Shown piece by piece: positions 4,329 to 20,786 of a stretch of DNA of 64,000 nucleotides. How positions within the stretch are numbered: the stretch's first letter is position 1; each line of letters begins with the position of its first letter. A model generated the notes under the pieces. It was not told the origin of the DNA, did not search any database, and saw only the letters and a list, made by a program, of their open reading frames with translations. Source of the stretch: Sulfurifustis variabilis (GTDB lineage: Bacteria; Pseudomonadota; Gammaproteobacteria; Acidiferrobacterales; Sulfurifustaceae). The position numbers were made by a program, and so were the translations under genes. The DNA lies in contig NZ_AP014936.1 in NCBI RefSeq assembly GCF_002355415.1, positions 248,001 through 312,000 on the forward strand, written 5' to 3'.

Positions 4329-4331
4329 GAG

Positions 4332-5246: not shown

Positions 5247-5692
5247 TGCGCGTGGTCGGCGGGCCGGCCCTTGTACGCCGTGGCGACGACCGGGATGCGT
5301 CGACCGTCTTCCAGGTGCAGGGTGAGATGCAGCACGTCGCCCGGGCCGTAGGCGCGGGCCGGGCGGTAGAGCATGAGGTGCAGGCCGCCGGGTGCGAGCG
5401 TCACCTTGCCGCGTGCGGGCACCTCCAGGGCGTCGACCGGCCGCATGGACGCGACGTCCTTCTTCATCACGGTCTCGTGCATCTCGGCGCGGCCGAAGTC
5501 GTCCGACGCGACGCGGACGATCTTCGCCGGCGTCGTCGACTCGTTCTCGATCGTCATGTAGGCGGCGGTCGGCGCGCCCGGCGGCGCCGTGCGCACCCAG
5601 GCATCCTTGACGACGAGCGTCTGGGCATCAGCCGTGCTCCCGAAAGCGATATGGAAAACGGCGACCAGAGCGAGCGCAAGCCTGTTGTGCAT
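5243..5692 (-). CDS. Periplasmic copper chaperone, PCuAC (DUF461) family
   Basis: 149 aa with a cleavable signal peptide (ends near STADAQ). The family delivers Cu(I) to the CuA or CuB centre of heme-copper oxidases together with SCO. The copper-binding pattern H-x(n)-M ... H-x-M is visible as MHETVMKKDVASM and HLMLYRP. A His pair at the C-terminus (DHAH) may add a metal ligand. It lies directly between the SCO gene (2 bp away) and the CtaA-like gene (4-bp overlap), so the four minus-strand genes form a cofactor-assembly operon divergent from the subunit genes it presumably serves. Confidence 0.9.
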   Translation of the reverse strand: MHNRLALALVAVFHIAFGSTADAQTLVVKDAWVRTAPPGAPTAAYMTIENESTTPAKIVRVASDDFGRAEMHETVMKKDVASMRPVDALEVPARGKVTLAPGGLHLMLYRPARAYGPGDVLHLTLHLEDGRRIPVVATAYKGRPADHAH

Positions 5693-5693
5693 T

Positions 5694-6311
5694 TCAAGCT
5701 CCCTTCAAACGGGCGAAACCGGCGGCCATTTTCGCGACGTCCTGCGGCGCGGTGAAGACGGCGCGCAGGCGCGCGTCGGGGCCGACGAGGAAGATCGCGG
5801 AGCTGTGCTCGACCTCATAGAGGCCGTCGCGCTCCGGGCCGCGCGCGTAGTGAACGCCCAGCGGGCCGGTCAGGCGCGCGATCTCGGCGTGCGGACCGGT
5901 GGCGCCCACGAACGCCGGGCTGAAGTGCCTCACGTAGGCGCCGAGGTGCGCCGGCGTGTCGCGCTCGGGATCGACCGACACGAGCACGTACTGCACGGGC
6001 GCGTCGGGCCCGAGCTTCCGTTGCAGCTGCTGAAAGAGCGTCATCGCCGCCGGGCACACGTCCGGACAATGCGTGTAGCCGAAGAACACGAAGCTCCACC
6101 GTCCCGCGAAACGCGAGCGATCGAAGAGCTGCCCGGCGTGATCGGTGAGCATGAACTCGGGCAGCGGAAGCGGCGGCTCGTAGGCGTGGTAATCGCGGCT
6201 CGCGGGCGCACGCGCGCCGAGCCACTGGTTGACGCCGACCCCGGCACCGATGGCCGCGACGGTGAGGAGCAGCCAGATGAACGGAAGGAATCGCTTGGAC
6301 ACGCTCGCCAT
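5694..6311 (-). CDS. SCO1/SenC copper-delivery protein
   Basis: A thioredoxin-fold copper chaperone/thiol reductase for CuA assembly. One N-terminal TM anchor (FIWLLLTVAAIGAGVGV) is followed by a periplasmic domain with the metal motif THCPDVCP and the third ligand His in EHSSAIFL. I chose the ATG at 6311 (205 aa): the alternative at 6335 starts within 3 bases of the FNR-type box at 6338-6351 and has no ribosome site, whereas 6311 is preceded by GGGAAAACGAGA. It is the first gene of the minus-strand assembly operon and is divergent from the heme-copper reductase operon. Confidence 0.9.
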   Translation of the reverse strand: MASVSKRFLPFIWLLLTVAAIGAGVGVNQWLGARAPASRDYHAYEPPLPLPEFMLTDHAGQLFDRSRFAGRWSFVFFGYTHCPDVCPAAMTLFQQLQRKLGPDAPVQYVLVSVDPERDTPAHLGAYVRHFSPAFVGATGPHAEIARLTGPLGVHYARGPERDGLYEVEHSSAIFLVGPDARLRAVFTAPQDVAKMAAGFARLKGA

Positions 6312-6337
6312 TCTCGTTTTCCCGCTATTTTCCACAC

Positions 6338-6351
6338 TTGATGTAAGTCAA
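6338..6351. promoter_or_regulatory. FNR/Dnr-type binding site in the divergent intergenic region
   Basis: TTGAT-GTAA-GTCAA, one mismatch from the FNR/ANR/DNR consensus TTGAT-N4-ATCAA. It lies between the minus-strand assembly operon (start 6311) and the plus-strand reductase operon (start 6443), 27 bp and 91 bp away. It could activate either or both when oxygen is low or NO is present. Confidence 0.7.
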
Positions 6352-6442: not shown

Positions 6443-6655
6443 ATGGCGCAGAAGAAACCGGAGCTCGAAACCGGCACCACGACCGCATCCGCCACCGGCG
6501 CGTCCGCGCCGGCGCCGATGGAGGACGACGTGCCGGTGATGCAGAAGATCCTGGACAACCCGTTCCTGCTGCTCTTCCTCGGCGTCGTGATGCCGACGGT
6601 CTTCTACATCATTTGGGGCGTGATGGAAATCGTCACGATCCCGATCGCCAAGTGA
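6443..6655 (+). CDS. Small single-TM protein of the heme-copper reductase operon
   Basis: 70 aa: a polar Thr/Ala/Pro-rich N-terminal half, then one TM helix (LLLFLGVVMPTVFYIIWGVM) near the C-terminus. It precedes subunit II by 22 bp. Small single-helix subunits are common in B-type heme-copper oxidases (for example subunit IIa), so a structural role is plausible, but I recognise no named family. The start ATG is the only reasonable one, although its ribosome site is weak (GAGGGCCCAGACC). Confidence 0.65.
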   Translation: MAQKKPELETGTTTASATGASAPAPMEDDVPVMQKILDNPFLLLFLGVVMPTVFYIIWGVMEIVTIPIAK

Positions 6656-6677
6656 TCAGCGGACACGGGAGACGACC

Positions 6678-7229
6678 ATGAGTGCCATCCTGCCGCCCAG
6701 CCAGCGCCTCTGGTGGAAACAGCCGCTCGACAAGGTCGAGGGGACATGGATCGCCCTGGCGCTGCTCTGGTGCCTGATTCTCTTCTTCATGATGCCGTTC
6801 TGGCACGTGTACGGAAAGCAGAACCTCTCGAACGAGGCGTATCGCACCTCGCCCGAGGCCTTCCAGAAGAAGGCCCAGGAGCTGGTGGACCAGTACACGG
6901 TGCGCACCGAAACCGACGCCAACATCCCGGTCGTCCGCCCGCCCGCCGGAAGCGACATCTACATCCTCGGGCGCCTGTGGCAGTGGTGGCCGATCTACGA
7001 GCTCGAGAAGGGGCAGACCTACCGCGTGCACACGTCCTCGCTCGACTGGCAGCACGGCTTCTCGCTGCAGCCGCTCAACATCAACTTCCAGGTGCTGCCC
7101 GGCTACGAGATGGTCGTGACGATGACGCCCGACACGAGCGGCACCTTCACGATCGTGTGCAACGAGTACTGCGGGGTCGGCCACCACACCATGGTGGGCC
7201 GCATCTACGTCGTCGACAAGAAGGAGTAA
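6678..7229 (+). CDS. Heme-copper reductase subunit II with CuA centre
   Basis: 183 aa: one TM helix near the N-terminus (residues 21-45) and a periplasmic cupredoxin domain. The CuA site is complete: His126 (DWQHGF), Cys161, Cys165, His169 and Met172 in CNEYCGVGHHTM. So it should take electrons from a soluble cytochrome c or copper protein. The single-helix, short form is like ba3-type subunit II and the proposed NorS of ammonia oxidisers. Six bases separate it from subunit I. Confidence 0.9.
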   Translation: MSAILPPSQRLWWKQPLDKVEGTWIALALLWCLILFFMMPFWHVYGKQNLSNEAYRTSPEAFQKKAQELVDQYTVRTETDANIPVVRPPAGSDIYILGRLWQWWPIYELEKGQTYRVHTSSLDWQHGFSLQPLNINFQVLPGYEMVVTMTPDTSGTFTIVCNEYCGVGHHTMVGRIYVVDKKE

Positions 7230-7235
7230 CGGGCC

Positions 7236-8933
7236 ATGGCCACCACCACGACCGACTACCGCATCTGCCCGGACACCGGCCTGCAGTTCCACCGGTCGGC
7301 AGAGAACCTCATGAAGGCGAACGCGGTCGCGGGCGTCGTGTTCCTGCTGATCGGCGGGATCCTGGCGCTCCTCGTCACGCTCACGCGCTGGCCCGCCGTG
7401 CACCTGCTGCCGGCCGACACCTTCTACCAGGCGCTGACCGCGCACGGGCTCGACATGCTCGTGTTCTGGATCATCTTCTTCGAGATCGCGGTGCTGTACT
7501 TCGCCTCGTCGACGCTGCTGCGTTCGCGGCTCGCGACGCCGAAGATCGCCTGGCTCGGTTTCGCGCTCATGATCATCGGCGCGGTCACGACCAACATCGC
7601 GATCTGGCGCGGCCGCTCGAGCGTGATGATGACCTCGTACGTGCCGATGCCGGCGGAGCCGACGCTCTACCTCGGCCTGATCCTGTTCGCGGTCGGCGCG
7701 CTCATCGGATGCTTCGTGTTCCTCGGCACGCTGGTCGTCGCGCGCGCCGAGCGCACGTACCAGGGCTCGATCCCGCTCGTCACCTTCGGGGCGCTCACCG
7801 CGTGCATCATCGCGATCTTCACGATCGCCTCGGGCGCGATCATCCTGATCCCGACGTTCCTGTGGTCGGCGGGCTACATCTCGCACATCGACCCGCTCAT
7901 GTACCGCGTCATCTGGTGGGGCTTCGGGCACTCCTCGCAGCAGATCAACGTCGCCGCGCACGTGTCGGTGTGGTACCTGGTGGCGGCGCTCGTGTTCGGC
8001 GCGAAGCCGATGTCCGAGAAGGTCTCGCGCGGCGCCTTCCTGCTCTACATCCTGTTCCTCCAGCTCGCCTCGGCACACCACATCCTGGTCGACCCGGGGG
8101 TGAGCTCCGAGTGGAAGATCTTCAACACCTCGTACGCGATGTACCTGGCGGTGCTCGCCTCCATGGTCCACGGCCTCACGGTGCCGGGGGCGATCGAGGT
8201 GGCGCAGCGCGAGAAGGGCTTCAACAAGGGTCTCTTCGAGTGGATCCGCAAGGCGCCGTGGGGCAACCCGGTGTTCTCGGGGATGTTCATCTCGCTCATC
8301 GGCTTCGGCTTCCTCGGGGGCATCTCGGGCGTGGTGATGGGCACCGAGCAGATCAACATCATCATCCACAACACGATCTACGTCCCCGGGCACTTCCACG
8401 CGACCGTGGTCATCGGCACCACGCTCGCGTTCATGGCGGTCACGTACTTCCTCATCCCGGCGCTGTTCCGGCGCGAGCTGATCTGGAAAGGGCTGGCGAA
8501 GTGGCAGCCGTACCTGTTCGGGCTCGGCATGTCGGCGTTCGCGCTCTTCATGATGGGCGCGGGGACGCTCGGGGTGCAGCGCCGCCACTGGGACATGGGC
8601 TTCACCGGCGCCATGCTCGGGTACGAGTATCCCGGGAGCGCCTACCTGATGATGGGGATCATGGGGATCGCGGGCGTCGCGGCGGTGATCGGCGGCGGGC
8701 TCTACATCCTCATCACCGTCGGCTCGATCCTGTTCGGCAAGAAGCTGCCGGGCGCGCAGTTCCACGACCTGCCGACGCCGGTGCCGCAGGCCGCGGCCGC
8801 GCTGCAGGGTCACGGGCACGCGGGCTTCGCGGCGCCGGGCACCTTCGCCCTGGCGCTCGTGTTCCTCGTCAGCTTCGTCGTTTATTACTTTATCAACTGG
8901 AAGTACCTGGCGTCCGTCTGGCCGCTGGGCTAG
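7236..8933 (+). CDS. Heme-copper reductase subunit I, NO-reductase-like (lacks the cross-linked Tyr)
   Basis: 565 aa, 12 or more TM helices. All six metal histidines are present: His70 (TAHGLDML, low-spin heme), His232, His281-His282 (SAHHILVD, CuB), His386 and His388 (PGHFHATV). But where oxygen reductases have HPEVY with the active-site Tyr at +4, this protein reads HSSQQ, giving Gln236. Loss of this Tyr is known from NO-reducing families of the superfamily (cNOR, and the proposed sNOR/eNOR groups). Together with the FNR/Dnr-type box and the cox2-cox1-CyoE-SCO order, I infer an NO reductase taking electrons through CuA. A divergent oxygen reductase remains possible. Confidence 0.85.
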   Translation: MATTTTDYRICPDTGLQFHRSAENLMKANAVAGVVFLLIGGILALLVTLTRWPAVHLLPADTFYQALTAHGLDMLVFWIIFFEIAVLYFASSTLLRSRLATPKIAWLGFALMIIGAVTTNIAIWRGRSSVMMTSYVPMPAEPTLYLGLILFAVGALIGCFVFLGTLVVARAERTYQGSIPLVTFGALTACIIAIFTIASGAIILIPTFLWSAGYISHIDPLMYRVIWWGFGHSSQQINVAAHVSVWYLVAALVFGAKPMSEKVSRGAFLLYILFLQLASAHHILVDPGVSSEWKIFNTSYAMYLAVLASMVHGLTVPGAIEVAQREKGFNKGLFEWIRKAPWGNPVFSGMFISLIGFGFLGGISGVVMGTEQINIIIHNTIYVPGHFHATVVIGTTLAFMAVTYFLIPALFRRELIWKGLAKWQPYLFGLGMSAFALFMMGAGTLGVQRRHWDMGFTGAMLGYEYPGSAYLMMGIMGIAGVAAVIGGGLYILITVGSILFGKKLPGAQFHDLPTPVPQAAAALQGHGHAGFAAPGTFALALVFLVSFVVYYFINWKYLASVWPLG

Positions 8934-9001: not shown

Positions 9002-9910
9002 ATGCGCACGATCGCACTCCTCATCGTCCCCCGCCCCCTGCAGGCCCTCGCCGCGGTCCGCCGGGTGCTCGCGATCCTCAAGCTGCGCATCGGAATCACG
9101 ATCGTCTTCACCGCGCTCGCGGGCTACGCCATCACCCCGGGCCGCCCGCTGTCGGGCGTCGAGACGCTGGTGCTGGCGCTCGCGACGCTGCTCGCCGCGT
9201 CGGCGGCCGGCGCCTTCAATCACTGGTACGAGCGCGACATCGACACGCGCATGGGGCGCACGCGCGGCCGGCCCTTCGCGACCGGCGAGTTCGAGACCCA
9301 CGCCGGCTGGCTCGCGTTCTTCGCGCTCCTGCTCGCGGCCGGCGTCATGCTCGGCGCGCTGCTGCACCCCAGGGTCGGGCTTTTTCTTTTCCTCGGCGCC
9401 GTCACGTACGGCGGGCTCTACACGGTCTGCCTCAAGCGCAAGACTTCGCTCAACATCGTCATCGGCGGTCTCGCGGGCAGCTTCGCGGTGCTCGCCGGCG
9501 CCGCGGCGGCCGATCCGCTGATCGGTCCGCGCGCGTGGGTGCTCGCGCTCGTGCTCCTTCTCTGGACGCCGTCGCACTTCTGGAGCCTGGCCTCCGCCTT
9601 GCGCGAGCAGTACGCGCAGGCGGGCGTGCCCATGCTGCCCGCGGTCGTCGGCCCGCGCGCGGCGGCCTGGGTGGTGTTCGGCAACACGGTCCTGCTCGCC
9701 GCCGCCTCGCTGTGGCTCGCGCGTTTCGGGTTTACGTGGATCTATCTCGCCGGGGCGCTCGCCGGCGGCGCGCTGCTCCTCGCGCGCAACGTCCGGATGC
9801 TCCGCGATCACTCGGCCCGCGCCGCGATGAAGGGCTTCCACGCCTCGCTCGTGCAGCTCACGCTCGTGTTGATCGCGGCCATGGCCGACGTCTACCTGGG
9901 AGGAGCCTGA
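9002..9910 (+). CDS. cyoE: Protoheme IX farnesyltransferase (heme O synthase)
   Basis: 302 aa UbiA-superfamily prenyltransferase with about nine TM helices that adds the farnesyl group to heme B, feeding CtaA. The prenyl-diphosphate/Mg motif is NHWYERDIDTRMGRTRGRP and the CyoE hallmark TPSHFWSLA is present. The start ATG follows GAGGAACC. A terminator separates it from subunit I, and its stop overlaps the start of the next SCO gene (TGATG). Presence of CyoE and CtaA suggests the first reductase carries heme O or A rather than only heme B. Confidence 0.93.
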   Translation: MRTIALLIVPRPLQALAAVRRVLAILKLRIGITIVFTALAGYAITPGRPLSGVETLVLALATLLAASAAGAFNHWYERDIDTRMGRTRGRPFATGEFETHAGWLAFFALLLAAGVMLGALLHPRVGLFLFLGAVTYGGLYTVCLKRKTSLNIVIGGLAGSFAVLAGAAAADPLIGPRAWVLALVLLLWTPSHFWSLASALREQYAQAGVPMLPAVVGPRAAAWVVFGNTVLLAAASLWLARFGFTWIYLAGALAGGALLLARNVRMLRDHSARAAMKGFHASLVQLTLVLIAAMADVYLGGA

Positions 9911-10794
9911 TGGCGCGGCTCACTTCGGGCGGCCTGCTGCTCGCGTTCTTCCTGCTGCCCGGCCTCGCTTCGGCGCAGGATTCGCACGGCGCCCACGCCC
10001 CTGCGGCGACCGGCCAGGCGGACCACGGCGCGAGCCATGCGGCCGCTCACGCGCCGGTCGTGGACTTCGACGAGGCCTCCGCGCTCGAGATCAGCCAGGG
10101 CGCGATCGGGCGGGCGCTGGAGAGCTATCAGCTGCGCGACGGCGAAGGCCGACCCGTGGTCCTCGAGCAGTACCGCGGCAAGCCGCTCGTCGTGAGCCTC
10201 ATCTACACCAGCTGCGCCCACGTGTGCCCGACGACCACGCGCCACCTGGCCGGTGTCGTCCGGAAGGCGCGCGCCGCGCTCGGCGAGGAGAGTTTTCACG
10301 TCGTGACGATCGGCTTCGACACGCCGAACGACACCCCCGAAGCGATGCGCGCCTTCGCGCGCCAGCAGGGCGCGCAGACGGCCGGCTGGGACTTCCTGAG
10401 CGCCGACGCCGCGACGATCGACCGCCTGTCCGGGAATCTCGGGTTCCTCTACCGCGCGTCGCCGCGCGGCTTCGATCACCTGGTGCAGGCGACGCTCGTC
10501 GACACCGAGGGCAGGATCCGCGCGCAGGTCTACGGCATGACCTTCGATACGCCGCAGATGGTCGAGCCGCTGAAGCGCATGGTGCTCGGGGAGGCGCCCG
10601 CGCCGACGGCGCTGCACGGCGCCTGGAACAAGGTGCGGCTCTTCTGCACCACGTACGATCCGGCGAGCGACTCCTATCGGTTCGACTACTCGCTCTTCGT
10701 CGGCATCGTGATCGGGATGCTGATCCTGGGGTCGGGGATCGCGTTTCTCGTGCGGGAGTTCATGCGGAACCGACGCACCCCCGCCACTCGCTGA
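9910..10794 (+). CDS. SCO1/SenC family protein with C-terminal membrane anchor
   Basis: 294 aa. A signal peptide (ends near GLASAQ) is followed by a His/Ala-rich linker (residues 22-50), which may bind metal, then the SCO thioredoxin fold with TSCAHVCP and the His ligand in FDHLVQA. A TM helix sits at about residues 260-280, so unlike the first SCO (5694-6311) it is anchored at the C-terminus. Starts by a 1-bp overlap with cyoE. The order subunits-CyoE-SenC resembles norSY-senC clusters described in ammonia oxidisers; it likely loads CuA or CuB of this reductase. Confidence 0.88.
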   Translation: MARLTSGGLLLAFFLLPGLASAQDSHGAHAPAATGQADHGASHAAAHAPVVDFDEASALEISQGAIGRALESYQLRDGEGRPVVLEQYRGKPLVVSLIYTSCAHVCPTTTRHLAGVVRKARAALGEESFHVVTIGFDTPNDTPEAMRAFARQQGAQTAGWDFLSADAATIDRLSGNLGFLYRASPRGFDHLVQATLVDTEGRIRAQVYGMTFDTPQMVEPLKRMVLGEAPAPTALHGAWNKVRLFCTTYDPASDSYRFDYSLFVGIVIGMLILGSGIAFLVREFMRNRRTPATR

Positions 10795-11684: not shown

Positions 11685-11698
11685 TTGATCTGGATCAT
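11685..11698. promoter_or_regulatory. FNR/Dnr-type binding site upstream of the second reductase operon
   Basis: TTGAT-CTGG-ATCAT, one mismatch (last base) from TTGAT-N4-ATCAA. It lies 60 bp before the GTG start at 11758, a spacing that allows class II-like activation at about -41.5 of a short leader. Confidence 0.72.
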
Positions 11699-11757: not shown

Positions 11758-13329
11758 GTGTCCATCCGGCAGGCGGCGCGGCGGCCGCTGCTCCTGGTCG
11801 AAGGGCTGTTCAGCCGGGTCTTCGGGGCCGAGGCGAACCCGTTCCATTACCTCGGGGCGCTCACGATCTTTTTCTTCTGGATCGTCCTCGTCACCGGCAT
11901 CTACCTCTTCGTCTTCTTCAAGACCAGCGTCTACGGCGCCTACGAGTCGGTCGAGTACCTGACGCACACCCAGTGGTACCTGGGCGGCGTGATGCGCAGC
12001 CTCCACCGCTACGCCTCGGACGCGGCGGTCGTCACCATGATGCTGCATCTCGTCCGCGAGTTCCTCGGCGACCGCTATCGCGGCTTTCGCTGGTACTCGT
12101 GGTTCACGGGCATGCCGCTCATCTGGTTCGTGTTCCTGCTCGGCATCACCGGGTACTGGCTGGTCTGGGACGAGCTCGCGCAGTACGTCGCGATCGCCTC
12201 GAGCGAGCTGCTCGATGCGCTGCCCATCTTCACCGACCCGATGGCGCGCAACTTCCTGAGCGAGGCGAACGTGAGCGACCGGTTCTTCACGCTCATGGGC
12301 TTCCTGCATTTGCTCGGGCTGCCGGTGATCATCGTGTTCGCGATCTGGTTCCACGTGCTGCGCATCTCGCGGCCGAAGGTGAACCCGCCGCGCGAGCTCG
12401 CGATCGGCACCTTCGCCGCGCTGCTCGCGCTGTCGTTCGCGAAGCCCGCGGTGAGCCACGCGCCGGCGAACCTGGCGACCGTGCCGAATCCCGTCCAGCT
12501 CGACTGGTTTTACCTGAACGTCTATCCGCTCCTCGATGTCTGGCCGCCGATGGCGGTGTGGGGCCTGCTGTGGGGCCTGAGCCTGCTGCTCGCGATCGCG
12601 CCCTGGCTGCCGCCGCTGCGAAAGAAGCCGGTGGCGGTCGTCGATCCGGCGAACTGCAACGGGTGCGGCCGCTGCTTCGCCGACTGCCCGTACTCGGCGA
12701 TCACGCTGACCGCGCACCCGACGCGCGCCGGCATGCAGCTCGCCGTCGTCGATGCCGACCTCTGTGCGAGCTGCGGCATCTGCGCGGGCGCGTGCCCGTC
12801 GTCCACGCCGTTTCGAAGCACCGTGGAGCTCGTGAGCGGCATCGACATGCCGCAGCTTACCGTGCAGGCGGTGCGCGCGCGCACGAAGGAGATGCTGGCC
12901 GGGCTCACGGGCGAGGGGCGCGTGATGGTGTTCGGCTGCGACCACGCGGCCGACGTCCGCAACCTGCGCGGCGAGGGCGTCGCCGCGGTGAGCCTCGAGT
13001 GCATCGGCCAGCTCCCGCCGTCGTTCATCGACTACGTGCTGCGCGACGGGCGCTGCGACGGCGTGCTCGTGACCGGCTGCCATCCGCAGAGCTGCCATTA
13101 CCGCTTCGGTAGCGTGTGGACCGAGCAGCGGCTGCGCCACCAGCGCGAGCCGCATCTGCGCACGCGGGCCGCGAAGGAGCGGCTGCATGTCGTCTGGGCG
13201 GGACCGGGCGAAGAGGCGCGGCTGGCGAAAGTGCTCGCGCGCTATCGCGCGGCGCTGCGGATGATCCCGTCGCCGGGGACCCGCCCGGCCCCGGTCGAGA
13301 ACCAGGACCGGAAGGCGCGCCATGGGTAA
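11758..13329 (+). CDS. Cytochrome b6-like / di-[4Fe-4S] ferredoxin / MvhD fusion protein
   Basis: 523 aa, GTG start after GAGGTGATTGC. Residues 1-300 are a cytochrome b of the bc/b6 type: four heme His in two pairs, His83/His97 and His184/His199, spacing 14 and 15 as in b6. Around 295-355 are two CxxCxxCxxxCP clusters (CNGCGRCFADCP, CASCGICAGACP), so two [4Fe-4S] centres. From about 375 the MvhD/FlpD domain follows (FGCDHAAD, LECIGQLPPSFI, TGCHPQSCHY). The parts suggest electron transfer between the membrane quinone pool and Fe-S/thiol partners; direction is unknown. It overlaps the next gene by 8 bp and heads the operon with the second heme-copper protein. Confidence 0.88.
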   Translation: MSIRQAARRPLLLVEGLFSRVFGAEANPFHYLGALTIFFFWIVLVTGIYLFVFFKTSVYGAYESVEYLTHTQWYLGGVMRSLHRYASDAAVVTMMLHLVREFLGDRYRGFRWYSWFTGMPLIWFVFLLGITGYWLVWDELAQYVAIASSELLDALPIFTDPMARNFLSEANVSDRFFTLMGFLHLLGLPVIIVFAIWFHVLRISRPKVNPPRELAIGTFAALLALSFAKPAVSHAPANLATVPNPVQLDWFYLNVYPLLDVWPPMAVWGLLWGLSLLLAIAPWLPPLRKKPVAVVDPANCNGCGRCFADCPYSAITLTAHPTRAGMQLAVVDADLCASCGICAGACPSSTPFRSTVELVSGIDMPQLTVQAVRARTKEMLAGLTGEGRVMVFGCDHAADVRNLRGEGVAAVSLECIGQLPPSFIDYVLRDGRCDGVLVTGCHPQSCHYRFGSVWTEQRLRHQREPHLRTRAAKERLHVVWAGPGEEARLAKVLARYRAALRMIPSPGTRPAPVENQDRKARHG

Positions 13330-13834
13330 GGCGACGCCCCCGCTTTCGCGGTTCGCCGGCCAGGCGGCGGCCTACGTGCTCTTCGCCGCCTTCATCGGCG
13401 TGTTCAGCGACACGCCGGCCTACCATCCCATCGGCCCGGACGAGGCGGCCATCAAGCTTTCCTTCAGCCACGCGGGCGAGCGGGCGCAGCCGTGCCGCAC
13501 GCGCAGCCCGGAGGAGGTCGCGCAACTTCCGCCGAACATGCGGCTCGCGCTCGACTGCCCGCGCGAGCGCTCGCCGGTGCGGGTCGAACTCCGCCTGGAC
13601 GATCGCCTGGTCTACGAGGATGCGCTCCGGCCGGCGGGTCTGAAGCGCGACATGGCTTCGACGGTGTATCGCCGCTTCACCGTGCCCGCCGGGGAGCACG
13701 CGCTCGCGCTGCGCCTGTCGGATCGGCCGGACGGCGAGTTCAACTACGCCCGCGAGGCGCGCGTCACGCTCCGGCCCGCGCAACTCCTCGTCATCGACTT
13801 CAAACCGGAGTCCGGAGGCTTCGTGCTGCAATGA
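13322..13834 (+). CDS. Uncharacterised membrane-anchored protein of the second reductase operon
   Basis: 170 aa. One N-terminal hydrophobic helix (residues 12-30) precedes a soluble, probably periplasmic, mostly beta-strand-rich domain with two cysteines (near 58 and 79). I recognise no family. It overlaps the upstream fusion gene by 8 bp and the heme-copper gene by 4 bp, so translation of the three is likely coupled. It could be a small accessory subunit taking the place of a NorC-like or subunit-II partner, but it has no heme or copper motif. Confidence 0.7.
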   Translation: MGKATPPLSRFAGQAAAYVLFAAFIGVFSDTPAYHPIGPDEAAIKLSFSHAGERAQPCRTRSPEEVAQLPPNMRLALDCPRERSPVRVELRLDDRLVYEDALRPAGLKRDMASTVYRRFTVPAGEHALALRLSDRPDGEFNYAREARVTLRPAQLLVIDFKPESGGFVLQ

Positions 13835-15246
13835 ACGCGACTCCCGCCAGGATCACCGCCCGGTCCTTCCCGACGGCGAGCGAGCGCGAGGCGGCCACGT
13901 ACGCGCTCCCCGTGCCCACCGATGCGCGGCGCGCGCTCACGGTCGGGTGGCTGTGGCTCGCGGTGCTGTCGCTCCTCGGGAGCGGACTCTTCTCGATCCT
14001 GCTCGTGCTGTCGCGCACGCCGTACGTGCAGAACGTCTTTCCCTGGACCGATTTCTTCCACACCGCGCTCGTGGTGCACGTCGACCTCTCGGTGCTCGTG
14101 TGGTTCCTCGCCTTCGGCGGCGTGCTCTGGAGCCTGAACTCCACGGCGGGCGGGCTCGTCGTCGGGCGCGTGGCGCTCTACACCGCGTTCGCCGGCGCCT
14201 GGATCGTGGCGATCAGCCCGTTTACCGGCCCGGGCCATGCGCTCATGAGCAACTACGTCCCGGTCCTGCAGAACACGGCGTTCTTCACGGGCCTGCTGGT
14301 CTTCGGCGGCGGCGTGCTGCTGCTGGTGCTGCGCGGCATGACGGCGATTCCGCCGGTCGGCGTCGCTCTAGACGGCGCGGCCGCGCTGCGCTTCGGGCTG
14401 AACACCGCCGCGGTCGCCACGGCGATGGCGGCGCTCGCCTTCGCGTGGACCTGGGCGACGATGCCGTCCTTCCTCGAAGGCCAGGCGTACTACGAGCTGC
14501 TCTTCTGGGGCGGCGGGCACGTCCTGCAGTTCAGCTACACGCTCCTCATGCTGGTCGCGTGGCTCTGGCTCGGGAGCGCCTCGGGCGCGCCGGCGCTCGT
14601 CACGCCGCGGCTCGCGCTCTTCTTTTTCGCGCTCGGCCTTGTCACCGTGTTCGTGACACCGCTCTTCTACTACGGCCACGCGGTGACCTCGGCCGAGCAC
14701 ATCAAGCTCTTCACGTGGCAGATGCGCTACGGCGGCGGGCTCGCCACGGCGCCGCTCGGCCTCGCCGTGCTGATCGGGCTGCTGCGCGCGCCGCGCGTCG
14801 ATGCGTCCGCCCGGCCGCTGCGCGCCGCGCTCGCCGCCTCCGTGCTGCTCTTCGGCGTCGGCGGGGTGATCGGCTTCCTCATCAGCGGCTCGAACGTCAC
14901 CATCCCGGCGCACTACCACGGCGCGATCGTCGGCATCACGCTCGCCTTCATGGGGCTCGCGTACCACCTGATCCCGCGCCTCGGCGGGCGCCCGGTCGAC
15001 GCGAAATGGGCGACCGTGCAGCCGTGGCTGTACGGCATCGGCCAGCTCCTGCACGTGATCGGCCTCGTGTGGTCGGGCGGCTACGGCGTGCAGCGCAAGG
15101 TCGCGGCCGCCGAGCAGGGCCTCGACGCGCTCGGCAAGATCGCCGGCATGGGCCTCATGGGGCTCGGCGGGTTGATCGCGATCGCGGGCGGCGTGCTGTT
15201 CCTCGTGCTCGTGCTGAAGAGCCTGCCGCGGCGTCCGGATCGATGA
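13831..15246 (+). CDS. Divergent heme-copper superfamily catalytic subunit (NorB/CcoN-like) with Glu at the metal-B site
   Basis: 471 aa, about 12 TM helices, the size of NorB. Ligands seen: His83 (VHVDLSVLVW, low-spin heme), His230 (GGHVLQFSY), His290, and His361/His363 (PAHYHGAI). The CuB His-His pair reads Glu289-His290 (SAEHIKLF) when aligned with SAHHILVD of the first reductase, and the Tyr position (+4 from His230) is Phe234. Without the Tyr, oxygen reduction is unlikely; a Glu metal ligand recalls NO reductases. I infer an NO reductase of a non-classical type (possibly the group proposed as gNOR). No CuA or heme c subunit is adjacent; the electron donor may be the fusion protein at 11758. 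Confidence 0.82.
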   Translation: MNATPARITARSFPTASEREAATYALPVPTDARRALTVGWLWLAVLSLLGSGLFSILLVLSRTPYVQNVFPWTDFFHTALVVHVDLSVLVWFLAFGGVLWSLNSTAGGLVVGRVALYTAFAGAWIVAISPFTGPGHALMSNYVPVLQNTAFFTGLLVFGGGVLLLVLRGMTAIPPVGVALDGAAALRFGLNTAAVATAMAALAFAWTWATMPSFLEGQAYYELLFWGGGHVLQFSYTLLMLVAWLWLGSASGAPALVTPRLALFFFALGLVTVFVTPLFYYGHAVTSAEHIKLFTWQMRYGGGLATAPLGLAVLIGLLRAPRVDASARPLRAALAASVLLFGVGGVIGFLISGSNVTIPAHYHGAIVGITLAFMGLAYHLIPRLGGRPVDAKWATVQPWLYGIGQLLHVIGLVWSGGYGVQRKVAAAEQGLDALGKIAGMGLMGLGGLIAIAGGVLFLVLVLKSLPRRPDR

Positions 15247-15292
15247 GGCCGCACGCGGTGCCTGCGACGAAACCCAAGGAGAAGAGAACCAC

Positions 15293-15736
15293 ATGGAATC
15301 GATCTCGCGTTTTCTGACCGACGACCATCATCGCTGCGACGACCTCTATGCCCGGTCCGAGACCGCGGCGGCGGAATCGGACTGGGACGCGGCCGGCGAT
15401 GCCTTTGCGCGATTCCGCGCCGCCCTGCTGCGTCACTTCCGGATGGAGGAGGAGACGCTCTTCCCCGCGTTCGAGGCGGCGAGCGGACAGGCGTTCGGGC
15501 CGACGGCGGTGATGCGCCTCGAGCACGAGCAGATGCGCAACCTGCTGAACGGCATGGCGCGGGCGCTCGTCGATCGCGACCGGCAGGCCTACCTCGGCAT
15601 CGCCGAGACGCTGCTGGTGCTGATGCAGCAGCACAACTTCAAGGAGGAGCGCGTGCTGTATCCGATGAGCGACGGCGTCCTGGGCGGCGACACCGAGGCG
15701 CTGCTCGAGCGCATGCAGGGCGTCGAGACGGTATGA
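15293..15736 (+). CDS. Hemerythrin-like HHE-domain protein
   Basis: 147 aa four-helix protein with the di-iron ligand pattern DDHHRCDD (residues 10-17), HFRMEEE, EHEQM and HNFKEERVLYP. Such proteins bind O2 or NO and often sit next to NO reductase and DUF2249 genes. It starts 46 bp after the heme-copper subunit and overlaps the DUF2249 gene by 4 bp. Role in this operon: NO sensing, buffering or repair of Fe-S clusters; which is not decidable here. Confidence 0.88.
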   Translation: MESISRFLTDDHHRCDDLYARSETAAAESDWDAAGDAFARFRAALLRHFRMEEETLFPAFEAASGQAFGPTAVMRLEHEQMRNLLNGMARALVDRDRQAYLGIAETLLVLMQQHNFKEERVLYPMSDGVLGGDTEALLERMQGVETV

Positions 15737-15996
15737 CGGTCCGCGAGCGTGTCATCGACGTGAGCGCGCTTCCGCCCCCGGAGCCGCTCGAGCGGGCGCT
15801 CGCGGCGCTGCCGGCGCTCTCGCGGGGCGAGTACCTCCGCATGCTCCACTGGCGCGAACCGTTCCCGCTCTACGCGATCCTGCCGGACCTCGGCTTCGCG
15901 TACGCGGTCCGGGCCGGGAGGCGGGCGCCCTACGAGATACTCATCTGGCGTCGCGGTGACGCCGAGGCCGAGGCCGCCGCGTCCCCCCGGGCATGA
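15733..15996 (+). CDS. DUF2249 family protein
   Basis: 87 aa soluble protein. It has the pattern of the family (HWREPFPLYAIL, then a beta hairpin ending YEILIWRR). DUF2249 proteins occur with hemerythrins, NO reductases and nitrite reductases; the molecular role is unknown. ATGA overlaps on both sides show that it is translated with its neighbours. Confidence 0.8.
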   Translation: MTVRERVIDVSALPPPEPLERALAALPALSRGEYLRMLHWREPFPLYAILPDLGFAYAVRAGRRAPYEILIWRRGDAEAEAAASPRA

Positions 15997-17294
15997 GCTT
16001 CGGCGGTCTCGCGCTCGAGCGGGCGCCGCCGCTGTCGGTGCCCGGGCGGTTCTTCGTGTCGGCGCCGGTCTACGGCCTCGCCGCCGCGCTGTCGGTGCTC
16101 TACCTCGGCCCCTCCGCGCTCGAGAGCCGATGGCTGCCCGCGACCGCCGGCGTGGTGCACCTCGTCACGCTCGGCGTGCTGACCATGAGCATGTGCGGCG
16201 CCTGGATGCAGCTGCTTCCGGTGCTCGTCGGGGCGCCCGTCGCCCGGCCGCGGGGCGTGAGCCTCGCGGTGCACGCGCTGCTCGCGCTAGGCGCGGCGGC
16301 GCTCCCCGCAGGTCTCGTCCTCGGGTGGCGATTCGCCCTCCAGCTCGGAGGCATCGCCCTGGCCGCCGCGCTGATCGTGTTCCTCGGCGCCGCGGCGCAC
16401 GCGCTGGCGCGCGCCGGCGCGCGCCACGCCACCGCGACCGGCATGCGCCTCGCGCTGGCCGCGCTCGCCGCGACCCTCGTGCTGGCGCTGCTCGTGCTCT
16501 TCCCGCGCGCCTTCCCGGGCGCCGGCGTCTTCGCGCCGCCGGTCGCGCTGCACGTGGTCTGGGCGACCGTGGGGTGGGTCGGGCTGCTCGTGATCAGCGT
16601 GGCCCTGCAGGTGGTGCCCATGTTCCAGATGACGCCGGAGTACCCGCGGGTCCTCGCCCGCTATCTGGTCCCGGCGCTCTTCGTGCTCCTCGTGCTCTAC
16701 AGCGTCGGACACGCCCTTCCCGGCACGGGCCTGCGGGAGGCGAGCTCGGCGCTGCTCGCGCTGGGGCTCGCGGTTTTCGCGGCGGTCACGCTCCGGCTGC
16801 AGGGACGGCGTCGCCGGCGCGTGCCCGACGTCGGCGTGGGCTACTGGCGCCTCGGCATGCTCAGCCTGCTCGCGTGCGCCGCGCTCTGGCACGCGGGGCT
16901 GCTGCTGCCGCGCCTCGCCGCCGATGCGCGTTTTCCGGTGCTCATCGGCGTCCTGTACCTCGCGGGCTTCTCGGTCGCGGTCGTCATCGGCATGCTCTAC
17001 CGGATCGTGCCGTTTCTGGTGTGGCTGCACCTGCACCAGCTTCGCATCCGGCTCGGACCGGGCCGGGGCGTCGACGTCGCGAACCTCCCGAACGTGAAGC
17101 AGGTGATCCCGGAGGCCCGCATGCGCCTGCAGTGGCGCGTCTTCGCCGCGGGCTACGCGCTGCTCCTTGCCGGGACACTCGTCCCCGGAGCCCCGGTCCG
17201 CGCCGGCGCGGCGATGCTCGCCGCCGCCTTCGTGCTGCTCGCGCGCGACCTGATCGCCGCGCTCCGCCTCTACCGGCGTCTCGCCTCCGCTTGA
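15993..17294 (+). CDS. 12-TM membrane protein of denitrification-type clusters (NnrS-like)
   Basis: 433 aa with about 12 TM helices. His residues lie in helices (HLVTLGVLTMSMCGAWMQLLP near residue 50; LHVVWATVGWVGLL near 190; WHAGLLLP), which recalls heme-copper-like and NnrS-like membrane proteins found beside NO reductases, though the full metal ligand set is absent. It overlaps the DUF2249 gene by 4 bp. A second protein of similar build is encoded at 37472-38596. Probably helps assembly or NO tolerance; that is inference. Confidence 0.72.
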   Translation: MSFGGLALERAPPLSVPGRFFVSAPVYGLAAALSVLYLGPSALESRWLPATAGVVHLVTLGVLTMSMCGAWMQLLPVLVGAPVARPRGVSLAVHALLALGAAALPAGLVLGWRFALQLGGIALAAALIVFLGAAAHALARAGARHATATGMRLALAALAATLVLALLVLFPRAFPGAGVFAPPVALHVVWATVGWVGLLVISVALQVVPMFQMTPEYPRVLARYLVPALFVLLVLYSVGHALPGTGLREASSALLALGLAVFAAVTLRLQGRRRRRVPDVGVGYWRLGMLSLLACAALWHAGLLLPRLAADARFPVLIGVLYLAGFSVAVVIGMLYRIVPFLVWLHLHQLRIRLGPGRGVDVANLPNVKQVIPEARMRLQWRVFAAGYALLLAGTLVPGAPVRAGAAMLAAAFVLLARDLIAALRLYRRLASA

Positions 17295-17360: not shown

Positions 17361-17924
17361 ATGTCGATGAAGCGCTGGGTTCTGATCGGGCTCCTCGCCG
17401 CCGCCGTGCCCGGTTTTGCCGCGGACGACGCGAGCCGGGTCGCGGCGAGCCGCGCCGCCGCGAAGGAGTTCATGGAGACGCTCAAGGGCGAGCTGCAGGC
17501 GGCCATGAAGACGGGCGGTCCGACGAACGCGATCGAGGTGTGCCACACGAAGGCGCCGGCGATCGCGCGGGAGATATCGAGGGCGAAGGGCTTCGACATC
17601 GGGCGCACCAGCCTCAAGACCCGCAACCCGGACAACGCGCCCGACGCGTGGGAGCGCAAGGTGCTCGAGGACTTCGAGGCGCGCAAGCGCGCCGGCGCAG
17701 ACCCGGCGACGCTCGAGCACCACGAGACCGTGACGGCGAACGGCAAGGCGACGTTTCGCTATATGAAAGCGATACCGACCGCGGAGCTGTGCCTCAACTG
17801 CCACGGCCGGAAGCTCGATCCCAAGGTGAGCGCGACCCTGAAGCGCCTCTATCCCGAGGATCAGGCAACCGGATTCAACGTCGGCGATCTCCGCGGAGCG
17901 TTCACCGTCGCCCAACCGTTATAA
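17361..17924 (+). CDS. Periplasmic DUF3365 (Tll0287-like) mono-heme c protein
   Basis: 187 aa. A signal peptide (ends PGFAAD) precedes a DUF3365 domain. A single c-type heme site CLNCHG lies at about residues 144-149, with conserved Cys-His earlier (EVCHTKAP). Family members are sensory heme proteins or small redox carriers. It is separated by 66 bp from the NO operon and has its own possible FNR-type site, and a further site follows it before dsrA, so it may be co-regulated with both. Confidence 0.82.
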   Translation: MSMKRWVLIGLLAAAVPGFAADDASRVAASRAAAKEFMETLKGELQAAMKTGGPTNAIEVCHTKAPAIAREISRAKGFDIGRTSLKTRNPDNAPDAWERKVLEDFEARKRAGADPATLEHHETVTANGKATFRYMKAIPTAELCLNCHGRKLDPKVSATLKRLYPEDQATGFNVGDLRGAFTVAQPL

Positions 17925-18002: not shown

Positions 18003-18071
18003 GTCCGGCGGGCGACGGCTTGTCTTAGCTTGGCGCCCTCTTTCCGTTCCACCGACCCGGGAGCCGCCTAC

Positions 18072-19298
18072 ATGACCAAGAAGATGCACGACACACCGAT
18101 GCTGGACCAGCTCGAGAGCGGTCCTTGGCCGAGCTTCGTCACCGGACTGAAGCGTTTGGCAAAGGACAAGGACATGATGGTCGACCTGCTCGGGCAACTG
18201 GAGTACTCGTACAAGACCCGGCTGGGCTACTGGAAGGGCGGAACGGCCAGCGTCATCGGCTACGGCGGGGGCGTGATCCCGCGCTTCTCCGAGGTCGCCG
18301 ACCGGTTCCCGGAGTCGAAGGAGTTCCACACGCTCCGGATCATGCCGCCCCCGGGCATGCACTACAACACGGACATCCTCCGGAAGTTCTGCGATATCTG
18401 GGAAAAACACGGCTCCGGCCTCATCGCGCTGCACGGCCAGAGCGGCGACATCATGTTCCAGGGCTGCACCACCGAGAAGGTGCAGGAAGCCTTCGACGAG
18501 ATCAACGAGCTCGGTTTCGACATGGGCGGCGCCGGCCCCTCGGTCCGCACCTCGATGTCGTGCGTCGGGCACGCCCGCTGCGAGCACTCCTGCTACGACG
18601 AGGGCCGCGCGCACCGCTCGGTGCTCAACAACTTCACCGACGACCTGCACCGCCCGGCGCTGCCGTACAAGTTCAAGTTCAAGTACTCCGGCTGCGCCAA
18701 CGACTGCATGAACTCGATCCAGCGCTCCGACATGGCGATCATCGGCACGTGGCGCGACGACATCCAGGTGAAGCAGGACGAGGTCAAGAAGTTCGTCAAG
18801 GCCAAGGGCCGCAAGTACGTCATCGACAACGTGGTGACCCGCTGCCCGACCCAGTGCCTGAGCCTCAACGACGACGACACGCTGGCGATCGACAACCGCA
18901 ACTGCGTGAAGTGCATGCACTGCATCAACGTCATGACCAAGGCCCTGTCCCCCGGCAAGGACCGCGGCGCGACGATCCTGGTGGGCGGCAAGCGTACGCT
19001 CAAGATCGGCGACCTGATGGGCACCGTCATCGTTCCGTTCATGAAGCTCGAGTCGGACGAGGACTTCGAGAAGCTCGTCGAGCTCGGGCGGAACATCATC
19101 GACTTCTGGGCGGAGAACGGGCTCGAGCACGAGCGCTGCGGCGAGATGATCGAGCGCATCGGCCTCGCGAACTTCCTCGAAGGCATCGGGCTCGACATCG
19201 ATCCGGCGATGCTCGCCAACCCGCGGACCAACCCCTTCATCCGCATGGACGACTGGGACGACGAGGCGGCGAAGTGGAAGGCCCGCAAGACAGGCTGA
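18072..19298 (+). CDS. dsrA: Dissimilatory sulfite reductase alpha subunit
   Basis: 408 aa. In sulfur oxidisers DsrAB works in reverse, oxidising persulfide sulfur to sulfite in the cytoplasm. The siroheme/[4Fe-4S] Cys set is CX5C (Cys164, Cys170) and CX3C (Cys208, Cys212); a ferredoxin domain follows with CPTQC and CVKCMHC. Overall sequence recalls DsrA of purple and Thio-type oxidisers, not sulfate reducers; this is by memory, not alignment. I chose ATG 18072 after GGGAG rather than an upstream TTG at 18030. A palindromic repeat of 92 bp follows before dsrB. Confidence 0.95.
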   Translation: MTKKMHDTPMLDQLESGPWPSFVTGLKRLAKDKDMMVDLLGQLEYSYKTRLGYWKGGTASVIGYGGGVIPRFSEVADRFPESKEFHTLRIMPPPGMHYNTDILRKFCDIWEKHGSGLIALHGQSGDIMFQGCTTEKVQEAFDEINELGFDMGGAGPSVRTSMSCVGHARCEHSCYDEGRAHRSVLNNFTDDLHRPALPYKFKFKYSGCANDCMNSIQRSDMAIIGTWRDDIQVKQDEVKKFVKAKGRKYVIDNVVTRCPTQCLSLNDDDTLAIDNRNCVKCMHCINVMTKALSPGKDRGATILVGGKRTLKIGDLMGTVIVPFMKLESDEDFEKLVELGRNIIDFWAENGLEHERCGEMIERIGLANFLEGIGLDIDPAMLANPRTNPFIRMDDWDDEAAKWKARKTG

Positions 19299-19303
19299 AG
19301 CAG

Positions 19304-19395
19304 CAATGCTGAATGTTGAAATTTTGAATGTTGAATTAATGATGCGCGCGAAGCGCGCACCGCAATTCAGCATTAAACATTAAGCATCAAGAATT
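19304..19395. repeat. 92-bp palindromic intergenic element, copy 2, between dsrA and dsrB
   Basis: Same plan as copy 1: AT-rich arms made of TGTTGAAT/ATTCAGCATTAA words around a core GCGCGCGAAGCGCGC (19345 area). It fills almost the whole gap between dsrA (stop 19298) and dsrB (start 19411). As RNA it would form a long stem that may act as a partial terminator or as a stabiliser and so change the DsrA:DsrB ratio. Confidence 0.75.
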
Positions 19396-19410
19396 GATCT
19401 GGAGATTCCG

Positions 19411-20481
19411 ATGACGCAACCGCGTATGCCGATCGAGTCCGGGGTGCCGGACCACTTTCAGTACATGCATCCCGTGATGCGAAAGAATTACGGGCAGTGG
19501 GACTGGCACGAGCGTCCCCGTCCGGGCGTGCTGCACCACGTCGCCAAGTCGGGCGACTCCGTGTGGACCGTGCGTGCCGGCACGCAGCGCCAGATGGACG
19601 TCTACACCATCCGCAAGCTGTGCGACATCGCCGACCAGTACGCCGAGGGCCACGTCCGCTTCACGATCCGTTCGAACATCGAGTTCATGGTCAGCGACGA
19701 GAAGAAGGTCGCACCGCTCATCGAAGCGCTCGAGAAGAACGGCTTCCCGATCGGCGGCACCGGCAACTCGGTGTCGATGATCTCCCACACGCAGGGCTGG
19801 CTGCACTGCGACATTCCGGCGAGCGACGCGTCGGGCGCCGTGAAGTCGCTGATGGACGAGCTGCATCACGAGTTCACGCACGAAGAGATGCCGAACCGCG
19901 TCCGGATCACGACGTCCTGCTGCCAGATCAACTGCGGCGGCCAGGGCGACATCGCCATCAACATCCAGCACACCAAGCCGCCGAAGATCAACCACGATCT
20001 CGTGGCGAACGTGTGCGAGCGGCCCAGCGTCGTCGCGCGCTGCCCGGTGGCGGCGATCCGTCCGGCGATGGTGAACGGCAAGCCCTCCCTCGAGGTGGAC
20101 GAGAAGAAGTGCATCTGCTGCGGCGCGTGCTTCCCGCCGTGTCCGCCCATGCAAATCAACGACCCCGAGCACTCGAAGTTCGCCATCTGGGTCGGCGGCA
20201 AGAACTCGAACGCGCGCTCCAAGCCCACGTTCCACAAGCTCGTGGCGGCCGGCATCCCGAACAACCCGCCGCGCTGGCCGGAAGTCGGCGCCGTGGTGAA
20301 GAAGATCCTGCGCGTCTACAAGGAAGACGCGAGGGACTGGGAGCGCATCGGCGAGTGGGTCGAGCGTATCGGCTGGCCGCGCTTCTTCGAGCTCACCGAG
20401 CTGCCGTTCACGAAGTACCACGTCGACAGCTGGCGCGGCGCCCGGCACAGCCTGAACGCCTCGGCGCACATCCGCTTCTGA
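19411..20481 (+). CDS. dsrB: Dissimilatory sulfite reductase beta subunit
   Basis: 356 aa partner of DsrA; the catalytic siroheme is held at the A/B interface. Cys pattern SCCQINCGG (Cys170, Cys171, Cys175) and CPVAAIRP (Cys211), followed by a ferredoxin domain CICCGACFPPCPPM. Start ATG follows GGAGATTCCG. A strong terminator follows 27 bp after the stop, so none of the usual dsrEFHCMKLJOPN genes is co-transcribed here. Confidence 0.95.
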   Translation: MTQPRMPIESGVPDHFQYMHPVMRKNYGQWDWHERPRPGVLHHVAKSGDSVWTVRAGTQRQMDVYTIRKLCDIADQYAEGHVRFTIRSNIEFMVSDEKKVAPLIEALEKNGFPIGGTGNSVSMISHTQGWLHCDIPASDASGAVKSLMDELHHEFTHEEMPNRVRITTSCCQINCGGQGDIAINIQHTKPPKINHDLVANVCERPSVVARCPVAAIRPAMVNGKPSLEVDEKKCICCGACFPPCPPMQINDPEHSKFAIWVGGKNSNARSKPTFHKLVAAGIPNNPPRWPEVGAVVKKILRVYKEDARDWERIGEWVERIGWPRFFELTELPFTKYHVDSWRGARHSLNASAHIRF

Positions 20482-20551: not shown

Positions 20552-20737
20552 TCAAGCGCCCGCGAGCAGCCGGCGGATGATCTGGAACGAGGCGAGCGCG
20601 AGCACCAGGATGATCCCGAAGAAGATCAGATCGCGGTGCTTGAAGCGCGCTCCGCGCGAACGCTCGACGCGGTCGAGCGCCCAGTGGGTGAAGAAGTAGA
20701 GTCCGGCCCCCACCAGCGTGAAGTAGACGATTTCCAT
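20552..20737 (-). CDS. Small two-TM hypothetical protein
   Basis: 61 aa with two predicted TM helices (residues 3-18 and 37-56) separated by a basic loop (DRVERSRGARFKHRD). No family recognised. It is divergent from the gene at 20873, and the FNR-type site at 20773-20786 lies 36 bp upstream of its start. It is convergent with dsrB, sharing the terminator region. Confidence 0.65.
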   Translation of the reverse strand: MEIVYFTLVGAGLYFFTHWALDRVERSRGARFKHRDLIFFGIILVLALASFQIIRRLLAGA

Positions 20738-20772: not shown

Positions 20773-20786
20773 TTGATCGCGGTCAA
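20773..20786. promoter_or_regulatory. FNR/Dnr-type binding site in a divergent promoter region
   Basis: TTGAT-CGCG-GTCAA, one mismatch from TTGAT-N4-ATCAA. It lies between the divergent small genes 20737(-) and 20873(+), 36 and 87 bp from their starts. Confidence 0.7.

Follow-up and report, generated by a model that had tools for sequence, protein, structure and literature searches.

Which protein reduces nitric oxide (NO) in a locus that couples a divergent haem-copper protein to an iron-sulphur fusion protein, and what are these two partners for? The question is raised by Sulfurifustis variabilis, in a 64,000-nucleotide stretch of its genome (NZ_AP014936.1, positions 248,001-312,000; the window, from the start of which all coordinates are counted). 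Here an operon encodes a fusion of cytochrome b, ferredoxin and FlpD/MvhD domains (the fusion), a protein with one helix and a 471-amino-acid relative of haem-copper oxidase (HCO) subunit I, called HCO2 in what follows. An earlier note on this DNA, made from the letters alone, took HCO2 for a non-classical NO reductase that receives its electrons through the fusion rather than from cytochrome c. The computational analysis reported here points to another enzyme. Judged by its sequence, the three-gene eNOR unit at 6443-8933, and not HCO2, is likely to be the NO reductase of the locus.

The eNOR unit upstream of the fusion operon

A complete eNOR locus, which the earlier note had overlooked, occupies positions 6443-8933 behind an FNR/Dnr-type box of its own at 6338. 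The subunit I encoded at 7236-8933 has a Gln at the Tyr position of transmembrane helix (TM) 6, keeps the His-His pair and is preceded by a cupredoxin subunit II. Because the replacement of this Tyr by Gln is a published mark of eNOR (PMC8756737, available part), the protein was assigned to eNOR. The HxxQQ motif was found in all 64 eNOR subunit I sequences and the CuA motif in 61 of 62 subunit II homologues; two eNOR rows that fell outside the pattern scan for His-His (L085 and L105; L numbers stand for loci and G numbers for genomes) show the pair in the alignment. Between the eNOR unit and the fusion operon lie the genes for CtaB and Sco.

Divergent from the eNOR unit, at 3294-6335 on the minus strand, are the genes of two CtaA paralogues, a PCuAC protein and a further Sco. 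The source genome (3.96 Mb) holds seven COX1-family proteins, which by motif and neighbours were typed as three A-type, one cbb3, one cNOR-type, eNOR and HCO2. L154, a locus from a Chloroflexi-phylum genome, also encodes an HCO subunit I with the residues H-T-L-V-N (1725-3344, minus strand), close to eNOR and to a gene resembling HCO2. Its Tyr position is occupied by Asn, which is listed for sNOR and CuANor in the available part of PMC8756737.

Metal ligands and fold of HCO2

HCO2 matched the Pfam family COX1 at 49.8 bits (cut-off 34.8), in line with its earlier designation as a haem-copper subunit. The predicted model (pLDDT 83.7) presents a complete 12-helix HCO subunit I fold, for which Foldseek gave Thermus ba3 as the best match (E 4e-10) and VIA gave Z scores of 28.6-30.7 over 400+ residues (50 rows shown). 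The ligands were compared in an alignment of 56 HCO2 rows of 420 amino acids or more (identical and short ones dropped), 32 rows of eNOR subunit I and 5 other oxidases of the source genome. The column of the TM7 His-His pair of eNOR falls on F279-Y280 of HCO2. The pair is absent from all 56 HCO2 rows, one of which has a single His at position 279. H230, Q233, H361 and H363 occur in every row and H83 in 55; together with R422-K423 these residues are kept in 55-56 of the 56 rows across a wide range. Of the six histidines that form the signature of the haem-copper superfamily (PMC3413370, available part), HCO2 has retained four, namely the three of the haems and one of metal B (H230). At the TM6 Tyr position Phe occurs in 47 rows, Tyr in 8 and Gly in 1, and the Gln that marks eNOR in none. 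The combination of H-x-x-x-E in TM6 with a metal-B His pair that characterizes cNOR and qNOR, as in the cNOR-type protein of the source genome (L116, HIWVE), is also absent from HCO2.

In the earlier note Glu289-His290 was thought to replace the CuB His-His pair. Both residues are present in the window protein, but they are out of register with the column of the pair, sit where the helix following TM7 begins in the model, and are not conserved (Glu in 31 and His in 38 of the 56 rows, respectively); they were therefore rejected as metal ligands. Phe234 does occupy the Tyr position as the note described. No Asp or Glu is invariant among the 56 aligned rows. With two of the three metal-B ligands lost and no conserved carboxylate, the designation of HCO2 as an NO reductase could not be upheld. 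From these residues we infer that HCO2 should bind two haems and neither CuB nor FeB, and that it does not reduce NO: without the TM7 His pair it should lack the second metal, which leaves it unable to act as an NO or O2 reductase of the usual kind.

Ancestry of HCO2

A profile built from HCO2 only scored near-complete eNOR sequences at about 128-194 bits, two motif-checked B-type O2 reductases at 63 and 72 bits, ba3-type chains of the PDB at 41-54 bits and one A-type oxidase of the source genome at 18 bits. When a single HCO2 sequence was searched against the PDB no match was obtained at E up to 1; at this threshold the family profile matched solely ba3-type (B-type) chains. In the tree HCO2 formed one clade (SH-aLRT 100) beside eNOR (89) and apart from two B-type O2 reductases (100), which were the only rows of that type in a small outgroup, and the program warned of long branches. 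The tree comprised 60 HCO2 rows (with the window twice and the unclear L110), 34 eNOR rows, 2 oxygen reductases and 2 extra HCO2 duplicates; L016 was left out, its sequence containing undetermined residues. On this point the tree agrees with the earlier note. HCO2 does not group with the Tyr-bearing oxygen reductases (the two B-type rows), and the alignment restores no His-His pair. Profile scores and tree position together mark HCO2 as a paralogue of eNOR subunit I.

In the loci whose HCO2 rows branch off early (L018, L022/L023, L153 and L154) the HCO2 gene directly adjoins that of eNOR subunit I, and the HCO2 gene of L016, outside the tree, does so likewise. Because this is the position in which a duplication would leave them, HCO2 probably arose by tandem duplication of eNOR subunit I.

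Linkage of the fusion gene to eNOR and HCO2

Linkage was counted in a sample of 276 genomes of the class, 43 of which were matched in the profile search. HCO2 was present in 29 genomes, the fusion in 24, HCO2 together with eNOR in 19, and eNOR in 24, including calls in G215, G283, G292 and G195 that rest on partial matches (the G292 region has an eNOR subunit I at 66%, L083, and G195, of the same genus, was counted by analogy). G111 (98.5 bits, no TM6 motif in an open frame) and 8 genomes at 18-23 bits were counted as neither. Of the 24 fusion genomes, 23 also have eNOR (Fisher p 3e-31) and 20 have HCO2 (p 7e-20); the 19 genomes with both HCO2 and eNOR correspond to p 7e-18. On these counts HCO2 was rejected as the steadiest partner of the fusion. 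The constant linkage to HCO2, for which the earlier note proposed to scan genomes, holds in so far as HCO2 is nearby in many genomes, but the fusion is more steadily associated with eNOR, even where HCO2 is missing.

Of the 24 eNOR genomes of the class, 5 had no HCO2. Among 251 sampled genomes from the Chloroflexi, the phylum of record L022, eNOR was present in 18 and an HCO2-like gene in three, two of them weak (228 and 265 bits), and HCO2 was absent from 15 of the 18 eNOR genomes. Outside the Chloroflexi the usual gene order is small protein, subunit II, subunit I, (ctaB), Sco, fusion, one-helix protein, (HCO2). A CtaA, CtaB or Sco match was located at most 3 kb from HCO2 in 11 of 17 loci outside this order, which were hand-picked and not random, with no background rate to set 11/17 against.

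The fusion and the one-helix protein

Pfam recognized in the fusion a cytochrome b (68.6 bits), two 4Fe-4S domains and FlpD (56.1 bits, cut-off 22.3), which is the composition that had been read from the sequence before. The four cytochrome b His, the eight ferredoxin Cys and the four FlpD Cys were invariant in 36 of 36 fusion rows. The single helix earlier ascribed to the following protein is seen at the N-terminus of its predicted model; a Foldseek structure search with this protein gave 0 matches at E 0.001 or better. In 11 loci, as found with a profile cleaned of flanking cytochrome sequence, the one-helix protein is joined to the C-terminus of the fusion within one polypeptide. Since Chloroflexi and some other lineages make the fusion and the one-helix beta-sandwich protein as one chain, the two presumably act as a unit.

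This unit is frequently accompanied by genes for copper handling. Taking all phyla together, 65 open reading frames (ORFs) encode the fusion or a cytochrome b half of it, and 44 of these have a Sco match on their own strand no more than 1.5 kb upstream. In the Chloroflexi-phylum loci L158-L162 and L165 the order is eNOR subunit I, a DsbD_2-like protein, a copper ATPase and the fusion, the ATPase and DsbD_2 domains having been confirmed by Pfam in L162 alone; in L022/L023 a copper ATPase directly precedes the fusion. Within the fetched stretches all 9 Chloroflexi-phylum eNOR loci that contain the fusion, and none of the 10 that lack it, have a copper ATPase (p 1e-5), 7 of the nine coming from the unselected sample and L022 and L023 from the HCO2 search.

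An Hdr partner for the FlpD domain was considered and rejected: in the source genome HdrA2 (NF040770, E 1e-20) matches the fusion alone, and other genomes vary. On these matches HdrA is unlikely to be the partner of FlpD. Of 62 subunit II sequences 61 retain the CuA motif, so that cytochrome c can serve eNOR. The proposal of an electron feed that takes the place of cytochrome c is not supported, and the gene context fits copper maturation at least as well.

Relation to nitric oxide metabolism

A PF02239 match at E 1e-30, which takes in NirS plus relatives, was counted as cd1-family, and a match at E 1e-40 to the cNOR-type protein of the source genome as c/qNOR. Proteins of the cd1-family were present in 56 genomes, 39 of which had a c/qNOR-type match; eNOR was found in 15 of the other 17. 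This presence in cd1-family genomes without c/qNOR gives indirect support to a function of eNOR as a working NO reductase, and eNOR may close the apparent gap in denitrification in these 15 genomes. The partners of eNOR consequently matter for predicting the production of nitrous oxide (N2O).

A cd1-family gene was carried by 23 of the 29 HCO2 genomes (p 3e-13). No clear link existed between HCO2 and c/qNOR (11/29, p 0.06), and NirK above cut-off was found in 0 of the 29 HCO2 genomes. Among the ten HCO2 genomes in which eNOR was not found, 5 had cd1-family and 5 had c/qNOR-type matches. In 4 of the 17 loci of unusual order (L079, L089, L093 and L099) a cd1-family gene is situated within about 8 kb of HCO2. 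The co-occurrence, uncorrected for kinship of the genomes, connects HCO2 with NO metabolism or, more broadly, with haem-copper enzymes, without defining its function. That the locus as a whole fits NO metabolism, as was noted before, is supported by the eNOR unit upstream, the FNR-type boxes, the hemerythrin and DUF2249 genes and the enrichment in cd1-family genomes.

Copper maturation, electron input and the role of HCO2

The reading that we prefer, with a probability of about 0.45, is that the locus is an eNOR cluster in which the fusion and the one-helix protein form a CcoG-like copper maturation unit and HCO2 is a haem-only accessory paralogue. CcoG/FixG is an assembly factor of cbb3 oxidase and is laid out as a membrane part, two [4Fe-4S], a helix and a beta-sandwich. 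By analogy, cytosolic electrons would pass through the Fe-S clusters of the fusion and its two b haems to the periplasmic side. There they would keep copper reduced, from Cu(II) to Cu(I), for the loading of the CuA and CuB sites of eNOR, with Sco in Proteobacteria and the copper ATPase in Chloroflexi as probable loading partners of the unit. We infer this copper role, from the gene context, as well as the formation of a complex. HCO2 would have been paired ancestrally with eNOR and later also retained beside ctaA, ctaB and Sco genes, as a haem-only accessory protein for the biogenesis or function of haem-copper enzymes.

Several observations weigh against this. CcoG itself is not known to carry a cytochrome b. 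Its C-terminal domain gave a weak match with the beta-sandwich (hhalign probability 13%, P 0.002), and FixH was rejected as a homologue of the one-helix protein because no signal was obtained. As 22 of the 24 fusion genomes have CcoG anyway, any further copper reductase would need to be eNOR-specific; the distribution of CcoG, which was found in 45 of 48 genomes, was dropped as a discriminating test. In L156 the copper ATPase is on the other side of eNOR and does not adjoin the fusion, and the 9/9 association stems from related lineages and not from nine independent events, two of the loci having been reached via the HCO2 search. Six Chloroflexi-phylum fusions (L158-L162 and L165) lack the FlpD Cys and keep the cytochrome b His; the one in L162 had no FlpD match on a scan. 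This pattern of residues shows that FlpD is not essential to the fusion, and its loss decides neither maturation nor electron feed. Furthermore, eNOR was not found by profile search in 10 of the 29 HCO2 genomes, among them G248, in which the fusion is near the contig end so that eNOR may be missed; HCO2 therefore cannot be solely a part of eNOR. Finally, its haem with distal H230 and Q233 could still bind NO.

Instead of maturing eNOR, the fusion and the one-helix protein might provide it, or its CuA, with electrons from cytosolic Fe-S donors or quinol, HCO2 serving as a haem relay. The electron path of the earlier note would then stand, with eNOR in the place of HCO2 as the reductase. The steady linkage with eNOR, the full redox chain of two b haems, two [4Fe-4S] and four FlpD Cys in 36/36 rows, and the two haem sites kept in HCO2 are all consistent with such an input. 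It is made doubtful by the intact CuA, which cytochrome c can serve, by the copper ATPase and DsbD_2-like protein that accompany the Chloroflexi-phylum fusions, and by the lack of HCO2 in 5/24 class and 15/18 Chloroflexi-phylum eNOR genomes. Considering the gene context, copper maturation would rank above electron input. As to HCO2, an accessory or assembly role fits best. We suggest tentatively that it represents a new functional class, namely a paralogue of eNOR subunit I that has two haems but no copper and is run with a cytochrome b/Fe-S/FlpD reductase maturing or feeding eNOR, and in which H230 would have a haem-only role in a bis-His electron relay to eNOR, in NO binding or in the hand-over of haem during assembly.

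The serious rival for HCO2 is the binding of NO or O2, as a sensor or sink, on the exposed distal side of its high-spin haem. H230 and Q233 are invariant while the TM7 copper ligands are gone, HCO2 is part of an operon with an FNR-type box, hemerythrin and DUF2249 in the window, and cd1-family genes are close to it in the four loci mentioned above. A signalling domain is absent from HCO2, however, and HCO2 also occurs in 5 genomes that have neither cd1-family genes nor eNOR, which makes this role rather unlikely. Reduction of NO by HCO2 itself at a Glu-containing metal site, as the earlier note had it, would agree with the COX1 family and fold, with the 23/29 cd1-family genomes and with the kept H230 and Q233, but it is very improbable in view of the loss of the TM7 His pair in 56/56 rows, of a Glu289 that is off-register and found in 31/56, of the lack of any invariant acid, and of an intact eNOR close by. 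The least probable alternative is decay, HCO2 being a functionless paralogue akin to a pseudogene. Two metal ligands are lost, rows L081 (H83 to Tyr) and L088 (Gly at 234) diverge further, and in-frame stops occur in 2 of the 29 HCO2 genomes, whereas 27 have none and H83, H230, Q233, H361, H363 and R422-K423 persist in 55-56/56 rows. Decay is unlikely because the haem ligands are kept, and catalysis of a known type because the His pair is lost.

Features of the window

The fusion operon had been described as a series of overlapping ORFs. Its six ORFs are all present and neighbours overlap, except that a gap separates 15246 from 15293. Also as described, the hemerythrin and DUF2249 proteins are encoded in the operon, both scoring above their own Pfam cut-offs, and an FNR/Dnr-type box precedes it (Table 1). 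Boxes of this type with one mismatch number 4 in the window, against 0.18 expected. Scans with Pfam and NCBIfam gave no match for the 15993-17294 protein, a putative 12-TM protein in the earlier note.

Table 1. Position of the eNOR unit, the fusion operon and associated features in the window
Feature	Position	Strand	Basis or remark
FNR/Dnr-type box upstream of the eNOR genes	6338..6351	+	one mismatch
Small one-helix protein of the eNOR cluster, 70 amino acids, helix by eye	6443..6655	+	homologues head many eNOR clusters
eNOR subunit II with CuA motif CNEYCGVGHHTM	6678..7229	+	Pfam COX2 21.9 bits, just below cut-off 22
eNOR subunit I, 565 amino acids: H-S-S-Q-Q (Gln at Tyr position), TM7 His-His, H-x-H	7236..8933	+	
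CtaB-type haem O synthase (UbiA family), start approximate	9008..9910	+	Pfam UbiA
Sco-type copper chaperone, start approximate	10003..10794	+	Pfam SCO1-SenC
FNR/Dnr-type box upstream of the fusion operon	11685..11698	+	TTGAT-N4-ATCAA, one mismatch
Cytochrome b - 2x[4Fe-4S] - FlpD/MvhD fusion, 523 amino acids	11758..13329	+	Pfam
One-helix protein with beta-sandwich domain	13322..13834	+	model pLDDT 90.6; fused to preceding protein in 11 loci
HCO2, 471 amino acids: HCO subunit I fold without TM7 CuB His pair	13831..15246	+	Pfam, model, alignment, tree
Hemerythrin (HHE) protein	15293..15736	+	Pfam; near eNOR also in L176 and L179
DUF2249 protein	15733..15996	+	Pfam; also L009, L176
Hydrophobic, probably polytopic membrane protein	15993..17294	+	homologues near eNOR in L176 and L179
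61-amino-acid protein (small2)	20552..20737	-	FNR-type box at 20773-20786 just upstream

Directly after the fusion operon, at 17361-17924, a Tll0287-like protein is encoded (Pfam), with one CxxCH haem motif by eye. Shortly beyond, 18030-20481 contains dsrA (TIGR02064, 579 bits) followed by an ORF that by eye is dsrB-like; the source genome, which thus bears dsrA, carries cd1-family genes as well. Relatives of small2 were seen near eNOR clusters in several genomes and adjoining HCO2 in L079. A further FNR-type box at 37057-37070 precedes a 108-amino-acid protein, DsrC/TusE-like by eye, and a hydrophobic protein is encoded convergently at 37472-38629.

Comparison with known systems

If the preferred reading is true, HCO2 would be a haem-copper relative without the second metal in which all haem ligands are kept, and thereby an unusual branch of a superfamily of binuclear centres. 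The Fe-S/cytochrome b module, being common to Proteobacteria and Chloroflexi, would offer a handle on the copper or electron supply of eNOR. In the accessible part of the open literature no account of a link of eNOR with HCO2 or with the fusion module was found; Murali 2024, which was outside the search, may describe parts of it. That study is credited with the characterization of eNOR and the proposal of sNOR, gNOR and nNOR (PMC11388526, available part). For RME88945.1 cytochrome b6, DMSOR-beta-like and FlpD domains have been described, and no tie to eNOR is made in the available part of that source (PMC8756737).

Among known proteins HCO2 is closest to eNOR subunit I, of which it is the sister group in the tree and whose gene its early branches adjoin; it differs in having Phe or Tyr at the Gln position (55/56) and no TM7 His pair. 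With the FlpD/MvhD subunits of Hdr complexes the fusion shares its FlpD domain, which scored well over the cut-off, and it differs in that the source genome has no HdrA2 match besides the fusion. With CcoG/RdxA/FixG the fusion and the one-helix protein have in common the membrane part, the two [4Fe-4S], a further helix and a periplasmic beta-sandwich, and a likeness is also seen in the copper ATPase and DsbD_2 neighbours of the Chloroflexi-phylum loci. The fusion is distinguished from them by its cytochrome b and FlpD domains and shows no significant sequence match.

Altered metal ligands, as in HCO2, are known from the putative NO dismutases, for which the source of the six-histidine signature gives a different catalytic site (PMC3413370, available part), and from the bd-like oxidases of Nitrospinae, in which one CuB His is replaced by Gln and the His of the high-spin haem by Phe (PMC8026999, available part). 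The NO dismutases are qNOR-like, whereas HCO2 groups with eNOR in a tree that holds no NO dismutase or qNOR row. In contrast to both, only one of the three metal-B ligands is left in HCO2, and its set of haem ligands is complete.

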